The position numbers and the translations under genes were made by a program. Shown one piece after another: positions 31,622-33,191 of a stretch of 36,481 bases of DNA (within the stretch, counting starts at the first letter, position 1; each line of letters opens with the position of its first letter). Under the pieces are notes generated by a model, which was given only the letters and a program-made list of their open reading frames with translations, had not been told where the DNA came from and did no database searches. The stretch is taken from positions 1-36,481 of the forward strand of contig MGKT01000009.1 in assembly GCA_001794755.1 (NCBI GenBank), read 5' to 3'. This DNA comes from Candidatus Yanofskybacteria bacterium RIFCSPLOWO2_02_FULL_44_18. GTDB taxonomy: Bacteria > Patescibacteriota > Minisyncoccia > 2-02-FULL-40-12 > GWA2-44-9.

Positions 31622-31693
31622 GCCAGGGTAGCTCAATGGCAGAGCAGGGCATTTGTAATGCTCAGGTTGGAGGTTCAAGTCCTCTCCCTGGCT
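31622..31693 (+). tRNA. tRNA-Thr (anticodon UGU)
   Basis: Cloverleaf complete: acceptor GCCAGGG/CCCTGGC, D-arm GCTC/GAGC, anticodon stem GGGCA/TGCTC with loop TTTGTAA (anticodon TGT), T-arm GGAGG/CCTCT with loop TTCAAGT, discriminator T. CCA is not encoded. A -10-like TAAAAT is at 31603-31608. Confidence 0.95.
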
Positions 31694-31817
31694 CAGTTGT
31701 TTGTGTCTTTGTACAATTTTTATTTAGGAATTTATCTTAACTCGCTGCATGGTCCGAAAGAGGTTTGATTTTATTTAGTTTGCCATTTACGGTATGGTAG
31801 AGTGGTCAATAATCGGG

Positions 31818-31823
31818 TATAAT
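31818..31823 (+). promoter_or_regulatory. -10 box of a predicted leaderless homing endonuclease mRNA
   Basis: A perfect TATAAT ends 6 nt before the ATG at 31830. The -35 region is weak. The remainder of 31694-31817 holds no recognised gene. Confidence 0.45.
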
Positions 31824-31829
31824 ACACTA

Positions 31830-32630
31830 ATGCCGAGAAAGTGGACTAATCAGGACACGCTTACTTACAGAAGACAATTGATCAGGCTTTATAGCAAAGA
31901 AAATTTGTCAATATTTGAAGTTGGGGAAAAACTTGGTCTGAGTTACCAGTGTATATTTCAGAGATTGAAACGTCTCGGTATTAAAATATCTCCTGAATCA
32001 AAAAAAGGATACACTAACAAGAGATCCTTGAATCGTTTACAGGAATCTCAAGACTTGGCTGAGTTTATAGGGATAATGTTGGGTGATGGACATATATCTC
32101 GGGAGCAGATTTTTGTCACATTGGGCAAGAAAGAAAAAGCATATGTTGCTTATGTAATCGAGCTTTTTAGAAGAGTATATGCGTGCGAACTAAAGTGTAT
32201 GCTAAACAAAAAAGGCCACCATGTTCTTTATATCGGTTTTAGGAATTTGGTAGATTATCTTTTGAGTATTGGATTAGTTATGAATAAGGTAAAAGAGCAG
32301 GTTAAAGTTCCAAGCTGGATTTTTAGGGATAGAAAGTATATAATTGGTTTCTTGAGAGGATTCTTTGATACTGATGGTTCTATATATAAGCTAAAGCATG
32401 GTATTCAAATATCCTTCTGCAACATGTCTATGCCTCTTCTGGATAACACTAGAACTGCTCTAATTTCCTTAGGATTTAGTCCTTCAAAAATTAGTTCAAA
32501 TCGTGTCTACCTAACGAAGAAAAAGGATTTACTAAGATATAAAAAAGAAATAGGTTCAGCAAACCCAACTAAAATGGAGAGAATCAATAAATGGGTAGGT
32601 ACGGAAGTAGCCAAACCGGGCACGCTGTAA
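31830..32630 (+). CDS. LAGLIDADG homing endonuclease with N-terminal HTH
   Basis: 266 residues from the ATG at 31830. Another ATG at 31794 lies upstream of the -10 box. Residues about 12-50 form an HTH (RLYSKENLSIFEVGEKLGLS then YQCIFQRLKRLGI). Two LAGLIDADG helices follow: LAEFIGIMLGDGHIS (about 76-90) and YIIGFLRGFFDTDGSIY (about 170-186), each ending in the catalytic Asp, so a single-chain nuclease. The gene is more AT-rich than its neighbours. Its last 38 bp lie inside the tRNA-Tyr gene, and its TAA stop is formed by the tRNA anticodon loop. It is free-standing, not inside the nearby intron, and may act on a tRNA locus. Confidence 0.92.
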   Translation: MPRKWTNQDTLTYRRQLIRLYSKENLSIFEVGEKLGLSYQCIFQRLKRLGIKISPESKKGYTNKRSLNRLQESQDLAEFIGIMLGDGHISREQIFVTLGKKEKAYVAYVIELFRRVYACELKCMLNKKGHHVLYIGFRNLVDYLLSIGLVMNKVKEQVKVPSWIFRDRKYIIGFLRGFFDTDGSIYKLKHGIQISFCNMSMPLLDNTRTALISLGFSPSKISSNRVYLTKKKDLLRYKKEIGSANPTKMERINKWVGTEVAKPGTL

Positions 32631-32676
32631 ACGTGCTGGCCATGTGCCTTCGGGGGTGCAAATCCCTCCCTGCCCA
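32593..32676 (+). tRNA. tRNA-Tyr (anticodon GUA)
   Basis: Type II tRNA: acceptor GGGTAGG/CCTGCCC (one G-U), D-stem CGG/CCG, anticodon stem GCACG/CGTGC with loop CTGTAAA (GTA), long variable arm GGC/GCC, T-stem GGGGG/CCCTC, discriminator A. The T-loop is TGCAAAT, with G instead of the usual U (pseudouridine) at position 55. The first 38 nt are also the coding end of the homing endonuclease. Confidence 0.92.
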
Positions 32677-32694
32677 CAGAATAGTACTTTAAAT

Positions 32695-32947
32695 GCCGAC
32701 GTAGCTCAGAGGTAGAGCAACTCCATGGTAAATAAATTGCCCACTATTTTAGTAATAGATTAGTGAATCCCGAATTACGGTTAAAAGCCAGCCAGGCTCA
32801 GACCGTTCCGCAGTAAGCGGACGAACGACTGACAAGGGGTCCGTACCAATAATGGCGGATAAGATACAGTCTAATCCTCTTATAGGTTGAAATAAAAAGA
32901 GGTACAAATGAAGGAGTAGGTCGTGAGTTCAATTCTCACCGTCGGCT
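32695..32947 (+). tRNA. tRNA-Thr (anticodon GGU), interrupted by a group I intron
   Basis: Exon 1 is 32695-32729 and exon 2 is 32911-32947. Joined, they give acceptor GCCGACG/CGTCGGC, D-arm GCTC/GAGC, anticodon stem ACTCC/GGAGT with loop ATGGTAA (anticodon GGT), T-arm GTGAG/CTCAC with loop TTCAATT, and discriminator T. The intron splits the anticodon loop directly after the anticodon. CCA is not encoded. Confidence 0.92.
32730..32910 (+). ncRNA. Group I self-splicing intron in the anticodon loop of tRNA-Thr(GGU)
   Basis: 181 nt, no ORF. The 5' splice site follows a U (exon ends ATGGT) and the intron ends in G (ACAAATG), both group I rules. Core pairings can be traced in order: P3 GACC, P4-P6 with CCGC/GCGG, P7 GACTG, P3' GGTC, P8, then AAGATACAGTC, the conserved J8/7 plus P7' (CAGTC pairs with GACTG). 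GCC near 32738 can pair with the exon GGT through a U-G wobble (P1). The small size, the absence of an ORF and the anticodon-loop site resemble bacterial tRNA introns of the IC3 type. Confidence 0.88.
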
Positions 32948-33115
32948 CAGTCGAGAAAATAATTTTAATTATTTTCGGGTGAGAATTGAAAGGCGGAGCG
33001 ATGTTTCAATCAGCAGATTGAAACCGCGAGACGGGGTCGCGACCGAGCCGAGCTGTGGAGAGGCGAGAGTGGTGACCAATTCTCACCGTCGGCTCAGTCG
33101 AGAAAATAATTTTAA
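32930..33115 (+). repeat. 39-bp direct repeats duplicating the tRNA-Thr 3' end, with nested palindromes
   Basis: 32930-32968 and 33077-33115 are identical over 39 bp. Each begins with 18 nt of the tRNA-Thr 3' end. Just after the first copy comes a partial inverted copy: GAAAATAATT/AATTATTTTC (32955-32976), then GGTGAGAATTGAA (32978-32990), the complement of 32928-32940. The interval also holds a hairpin with 9-bp arms and an AGCA loop (33003-33024) and the palindrome GGTCGCGACC (33035-33044). This resembles an insertion or recombination scar at a tRNA gene. Confidence 0.75.
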
Positions 33116-33191
33116 ATAAACATAAATCACGCTACGATTCAATATTGAAGGATACTTCAGCAGTGAATAAGTAAGGTGGTTTAACAAAAAA

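Follow-up and report, generated by a model that had tools for sequence, protein, structure and literature searches.

A LAGLIDADG endonuclease gene ending inside tRNA-Tyr in Candidatus Yanofskybacteria: a probable natural home-and-rescue element of tRNA genes

Introduction

Judged by analogy, the closest precedent for the locus described here appears to be the mORFs of fungal mitochondria. The accessible part of PMC3630166 describes them in Allomyces atp6 and in Glomus atp6, atp9, cox2 and nad3, where replacement 3′ gene ends are supplied and the native end is displaced. The likeness lies in an endonuclease ORF that has entered an essential gene and brought a replacement end for it, the native end being displaced and the hybrid gene expressed (PMC3630166). 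In contrast, the mORFs concern the 3′ end of mitochondrial protein genes, whereas here a tRNA 5′ half is involved, in bacteria and archaea and with many tRNA types; set against the mORFs as that part of the source presents them, compensatory rewriting of the D-arm is a feature of the tRNA elements (PMC3630166).

SegB of the T-even phages is an intron-free endonuclease located beside phage tRNAs. It resembles the enzyme considered here in being an intron-free homing endonuclease near tRNA genes, and it acts on the DNA of the tRNA region; it is, however, a phage enzyme, and neither a displaced tRNA piece nor a recoded tRNA is described in the accessible text of PMC13096335. Insertions in the rRNA genes of CPR bacteria similarly encode LAGLIDADG homing endonucleases, among which I-ShaI has been characterised experimentally, but these enzymes sit in rRNA insertions, over half of them group-I-like, and are mostly single-domain according to the portion of PMC11270868 available, in the main text of which the word tRNA does not occur. 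HomeR is an engineered home-and-rescue drive: its nuclease homes into an essential gene, and a rescue copy comes with it; as outlined in the accessible part of PMC7968924 it is synthetic, CRISPR-based and built for Drosophila, whereas the element proposed here is natural and travels with a tRNA. No description of tRNA-rescuing homing elements was found in the open literature searched, most subscription papers lying outside it.

The window analysed here is the whole 36,481-nucleotide stretch of Candidatus Yanofskybacteria DNA. Its LAGLIDADG gene, the tRNA-Tyr into which that gene runs and the related loci of other genomes very likely represent a natural home-and-rescue element, in which a free-standing endonuclease would cut tRNA D-arms and travel with a recoded tRNA 5′ half.

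Results

The endonuclease and its gene

The LAGLIDADG ORF occupies positions 31830–32630 of the forward strand (266 aa counting the stop), with an alternative in-frame ATG at 31794. It lies between an upstream tRNA-Thr(TGT) at 31622–31694 and an intact tRNA-Tyr(GTA) at 32593–32677, both on the forward strand and predicted by ARAGORN; Rfam places the latter at 32593–32676 with 45.6 bits, and BLAST returned a single tRNA-Tyr match in the genome (631 kb in 9 contigs). The ORF and tRNA-Tyr share 38 nt (32593–32630, forward strand), and the stop codon TAA (32628–32630) falls in the anticodon loop, so that the coordinates confirm the original prediction that the last 38 bp of the ORF are the 5′ half of tRNA-Tyr and that the anticodon loop supplies the stop. 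In the protein the shared segment codes for a C-terminal tail predicted to be disordered, residues 260–266 of the AlphaFold2 model having pLDDT values below 50 and the block 261–266 a mean of 41. No Rfam-recognised intron lies between tRNA-Thr and tRNA-Tyr; the gene is free-standing, as had been predicted, and an intron-encoded nuclease was rejected. An integrase-type tRNA-integrated element was likewise ruled out: the sole ORF of at least 60 aa between the upstream tRNA piece described below and tRNA-Tyr is the LAGLIDADG one, and the duplicated part is the tRNA 5′ portion.

The product carries a Pfam LAGLIDADG_3 domain (E 4e-12), and the AlphaFold2 model of the 266-aa protein has a pLDDT of 86. 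Foldseek identified intein and intron homing endonucleases as its closest folds, with I-Tsp061I, I-DmoI and PI-SceI among the matches, and its nearest named protein relatives belong to Parcubacteria and other CPR bacteria. Residues Gly-85, Asp-86 and Gly-87 and residues Asp-180, Thr-181, Asp-182 and Gly-183 are invariant in 11/11 homologues. By its motif aspartates, Asp-86 and Asp-182, and by its fold the protein is a two-motif LAGLIDADG homing endonuclease. An N-terminal helical part (residues 7–48; 31848–31973, forward strand), modelled as helices 7–23, 28–35 and 39–48, probably binds DNA. This predicted domain, together with WhiA structures among the Foldseek matches, would also suit a domesticated WhiA-like LAGLIDADG transcription factor that regulates tRNA genes and whose nuclease function is gone. 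WhiA has lost the LAGLIDADG motif aspartates, whereas both are invariant here, and the family is patchily distributed, with matches in 83/383 genomes class-wide (E≤1e-10) and signs of recent transfer; domestication of this kind is thus highly improbable, and the protein is taken below as an endonuclease.

A possible −10 element, TATAAT (31818–31823, forward strand; read from the sequence), ends 6 nt ahead of the ATG. A consensus promoter scan did not single it out, giving one other weak site at 31786–31813, and was uninformative, with 1 site found against 3.4 expected.

The junction with tRNA genes is constant

Each of the 37 distinct Tyr-clade ORFs adjoins tRNA-Tyr: 35 end inside it and two end 3 or 9 nt before it. 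Overlap lengths range from 6 to 54 nt, with 12 ORFs ending in the anticodon loop; because the overlap varies while the junction is constant, the position of the stop appears incidental. Among 58 relatives, the 6 full-length homologues all end inside tRNA-Tyr, and 14/14 full-length Tyr-clade ORFs abut tRNA-Tyr in the loci fetched class-wide. Homologues that stop before an unrelated sequence, named beforehand as the outcome that would speak for chance read-through, were not found among the 37 distinct Tyr-clade ORFs, and read-through by chance was rejected on the 35/37 that end inside tRNA-Tyr. The prediction of a free-standing nuclease tied to a tRNA locus from which it borrows its end was supported.

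The class-wide fetch comprised 30 given loci and 40 further rows of the match table, very large intein-like open frames and some of the weakest rows being left out; 68 of 79 fetched rows abut a tRNA, 11 of these 3′ of tRNA-Leu, in a sample that is not random and was counted by hand. An independent scan of named genomes took every ORF at E≤1e-8 in the genome loci returned (79 loci) and a proximity window of −150 to +60 nt around the stop. A same-strand tRNA was present at the stop of 69/81 family ORFs, compared with 17/271 control ORFs in those loci. Single-protein queries against genome and viral contigs returned nothing, and it was an alignment query that found relatives there. The nuclease-free loci that hold both tRNAs (n=41) have tRNA-Thr(TGT) followed by tRNA-Tyr at a median gap of 49 nt; the gap is 898 nt in the window.

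A displaced tRNA 5′ piece lies upstream of the nuclease gene

Upstream of the ORF, aligned to nuclease-free tRNA-Tyr, the sequence TGGTAGAGTGGTCAAT (31795–31810, forward strand) is a putative relic of the displaced 5′ half of the ancestral tRNA-Tyr and plausibly extends over 31791–31817. Its 16 nucleotides are all identical to positions 8–23 of a nuclease-free tRNA-Tyr, its score was reached by 0/200 shuffles (p=1/201), and it fits tRNA-Tyr (score 32) better than tRNA-Trp (28, next best) or tRNA-Thr (26). Taken alone the window relic is suggestive of a tRNA-Tyr piece, and the comparative pattern carries the claim. Sequences ahead of the nuclease start codons correspond to roughly the initial 26 nt of tRNA-Tyr. 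A relic scored on tRNA columns 11–23 is present in 28/35 distinct Tyr loci; the 7 others fall below the threshold, some still with a recognisable piece. T8, an invariant tRNA base outside the scoring columns, is T in 28/28 relics, and the acceptor part (positions 1–7) is lost from Tyr relics. The upstream sequences of a clade match its own tRNA type better than do the upstream sequences of the remaining clades (p=1e-5 for Tyr, 2e-5 for Gln and 0.008 for Ser), and single-locus relics reach p≤0.05 at 8/15 Tyr, 8/10 Gln and 14/29 Ser loci; the relic of several Ser loci takes in the start codon of the nuclease gene. A replacement end with a displaced native end, as in the mORFs, is thus seen at 28/35 Tyr loci and in the Gln and Ser relics, the targets being tRNA genes of bacteria and archaea and not mitochondrial protein-coding genes.

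Relics end at about tRNA position 23–27, which places the insertion point there. The ancestral tRNA-Tyr appears to have been split and then rebuilt, so that the expectation of a gene wedged against the tRNA without splitting it holds for the intact downstream tRNA-Tyr and fails for the ancestral one, whose 5′ relic remains upstream. The conserved relic may also act as an operator for repression of the nuclease gene by its own product, a role that its place just upstream of TATAAT would suit; autorepression is known for I-TevI. No convincing relic was seen where a different nuclease occupies this tRNA-Tyr site (L022, L025, L027 and L044).

The D-arm of the resident tRNA is rewritten

Identity of the D-arm (positions 8–26) to nuclease-free tRNAs is lower in nuclease-bearing than in nuclease-free loci for all three families, with means of 0.63 vs 0.81 in Gln (p=3e-5) and 0.53 vs 0.73 in Ser (p=1e-10), and 0.50 vs 0.71 in Tyr (p=2e-12), the p-values overstating independence since nuclease-bearing sequences are mutually related. 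The baselines exclude tRNAs with a nuclease match upstream (6 Tyr, 2 Gln and 3 Ser). Acceptor stems barely differ (p 0.04 Tyr, 0.13 Gln and 0.54 Ser), a slight difference appearing for Tyr by nearest-neighbour identity (0.91 vs 0.97, p=5e-5). The tRNA-Tyr D-stem is still 96.3% paired in an alignment of 37 rows (35 nuclease-bearing tRNA-Tyr and two other tRNAs), with two-sided changes at all three pairs, and with its base pairs retained the rebuilt tRNA should work.

At tRNA position 19 (32611, forward strand) the alignment has C in the window tRNA-Tyr and T in the relic, a putative immunity change. By motif count the D-loop T at this position is present in 4/15 nuclease-bearing vs 75/91 nuclease-free tRNA-Tyr (p=3e-5); some nuclease-free genes also have C or A, and two of the 16 nuclease-free rows counted as lacking the T (L167 and one from L151) are there through a miss of the motif or the annotation. 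The nuclease-bearing loci that retain the T are L052, L057, L058 and L089. Inspected by eye, the 12 loci with a visible relic keep T[CT]AA in 11 relics and have lost it in 11 resident tRNAs, L052 being the exception in both counts. L057, L058 and L089 have no visible relic and a resident tRNA that keeps T[CT]AA, which fits a changed nuclease specificity, a degenerate nuclease or a different insertion. At tRNA-Gln, two of ten loci (L013 and L097) have D-arms that look unrecoded in the alignment. The resident 5′ half of tRNA-Tyr thus seems to be an element-borne replacement with a rewritten D-arm. As a separate observation, the D-arm of the L044 tRNA-Tyr resembles those behind LAGLIDADG genes and is perhaps the scar of a lost element.

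The same loci could be read as the work of an ordinary free-standing homing endonuclease inserting beside the 5′ edge of the tRNA, with the overlap a by-product, the upstream piece a binding site and the D-arm change a co-conversion of foreign tRNA alleles unrelated to immunity. That tRNA-Tyr differs in both halves between bearing and nuclease-free congeners would suit this reading, as would relics that keep T8 and the D-arm and drop the acceptor part in the manner of a protein-binding site. It is, however, unlikely: across three tRNA families most of the difference falls in the D-arm, with little or none in the acceptor stem, and the upstream piece contains the invariant T8 and is specific to the tRNA type. 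Home-and-rescue, with a recoded 5′ half, remains the preferred reading.

Signs of transfer as a single block

Two genomes of the same genus, G024 and G018, share 57% identity over the upstream gene region, 63% over tRNA-Thr and 67% over the spacer. The figure rises to 88–92% across the relic, the nuclease gene and tRNA-Tyr, and is 79% and less beyond tRNA-Tyr; farther pieces are 66–76% identical, save one downstream 132-nt piece at 89%. In Nomurabacteria, the alignment of L266 with L282 covers 924 nt, beginning at the relic and finishing with tRNA-Tyr, and nothing else aligns over about 2 kb on each side; the other genome pairs compared alongside gave a less clear pattern. These alignments show signs of recent transfer and indicate that relic, nuclease gene and tRNA travel as one block.

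Within two genera, tRNA-Tyr identity is 63–74% when a bearing species is compared with a non-bearing one (3 pairs) and 98–100% in 10/13 pairs of non-bearing species. Two of the three exceptional non-bearing pairs involve G020 and the third is G009/G019; in G020 a different ORF, possibly also a nuclease gene, occupies the tRNA-Tyr site. This comparison of few pairs suggests that the whole tRNA-Tyr, beyond the 5′ half alone, was replaced, and the fall in identity cannot be assigned to the 5′ half specifically. The contrast is given little weight because neighbouring tRNA-Thr genes vary as much.

Nuclease clades follow tRNA types

On a tree of 144 proteins (126 labelled, intein counted as a state), tRNA type changes 10 times for 10 states, compared with a mean of 61.5 after shuffling; the tree was built quickly, and many of its forks have weak support. 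Ser and Gln(CTG) have clades of their own, and Leu(GAG) shares a small one with Phe. Another clade sits just 3′ of tRNA-Leu(CAA), in a mirror image of the 5′ arrangement, and its displaced 3′ pieces lie downstream, reaching p≤0.05 at 5/10 Leu loci. Relatives at tRNAs were also found in Omnitrophota, Planctomycetales, Bdellovibrio and DPANN archaea. The viral-contig scan returned 39 relatives, all in intein-like ORFs of 658–1525 aa and none at tRNAs; a recent phage origin was rejected on these grounds.

Lone family members abut a predicted tRNA-Trp in a Pacearchaeota locus (L322), a tRNA-Pro(AGG) in Nanoarchaeota (L338) and a tRNA-Arg(GCG) in Patescibacteria (L328), hinting at further tRNA targets. 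At L010, L011, L074 and L312 a predicted tRNA-Ser with anticodon ACT occurs near tRNA-Ser-associated nucleases. At L033 (genome G048) a GIY-YIG ORF (Pfam E 5e-17) lies beside tRNA-Tyr, on its upstream side, flanked by two partial tRNA-Tyr copies, and is possibly a second nuclease type of similar habit; SegB is also a GIY-YIG protein. Between tRNA-Thr and tRNA-Tyr, L044 has an HNH ORF (Pfam E 3e-4, under the curated cut-off), L027 an ORF that resembles it with no Pfam match, and L025 an ORF that also has no Pfam match.

The neighbouring tRNA-Thr(GGU)

Directly behind the anticodon, the next tRNA, tRNA-Thr(GGU) at 32696–32950, contains an insert. The group I intron originally predicted in this tRNA is reflected in an Rfam signal at 32720–32889, a weak match whose 17.9 bits lie under the gathering score of 50. 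This signal is what favours collaborative homing, in which the nuclease would have left the group I intron of tRNA-Thr(GGU) and would mobilise it in trans. The nuclease lies, however, upstream of an uninterrupted tRNA-Thr(GGU) in L002 and L003, the relic fits tRNA-Tyr better than tRNA-Thr, relic and recoded D-arm both point to tRNA-Tyr as the target, and sister nucleases occur at other tRNAs, the target following the nuclease tree. Escape from an intron, which the original prediction had offered as one of two origins, is on this evidence the least probable of the readings considered, and scarcely credible.

The 3′ end of tRNA-Thr(GGU) (32930–32971) is duplicated 147 bp downstream (33077–33118) around a GC-rich, repeat-like stretch; L008 has a similar one ('ttgaaaggcgga...cgatgt...') close to its tRNA-Lys. 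Together, the GC-rich stretch and the duplicated tRNA end could represent a small mobile element associated with tRNA 3′ ends.

Discussion

In the mechanism proposed for the home-and-rescue element, the LAGLIDADG endonuclease would recognise and cut the D-arm region of nuclease-free tRNA-Tyr genes, and the break would be repaired from a nuclease-bearing chromosome, the nuclease gene entering at about tRNA position 23–26. Repair would also bring in a tRNA 5′ half with a rewritten D-arm, the form found at the junction; the recipient's own 5′ piece would stay upstream as the relic, where such a piece lies, and the downstream tRNA would be whole again, as it is in the window. The rewritten D-arm would no longer match the target, and through this mismatch the element would spare itself from being cut. 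The ORF meets no stop codon ahead of the tRNA and reads into the gene that would have been rescued. The same plan is seen at tRNA-Ser and tRNA-Gln in sister nucleases, and in mirror image 3′ of tRNA-Leu(CAA).

A wider reading, held with less confidence and still favoured, is that such loci form an unrecognised class of natural home-and-rescue elements that parasitise essential tRNA genes throughout CPR bacteria and have relatives in Omnitrophota, Planctomycetales, Bdellovibrio and DPANN archaea. Every clade would be dedicated to one tRNA, in 5′ and mirror 3′ versions, the recoded tRNA halves carried along would have replaced and diversified host D-arms repeatedly, and the relic would possibly serve as an operator.

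The rescue copy of HomeR is reportedly recoded. If the present interpretation is true, nature would have reached this engineered design, a nuclease attacking an essential gene coupled to a recoded rescue, and genomes would reveal how such drives fare over long periods (resistance, loss and scars). The odd D-arms of CPR tRNAs would be explained, and a nuclease family with specificities for conserved tRNA D-arms would be on offer.
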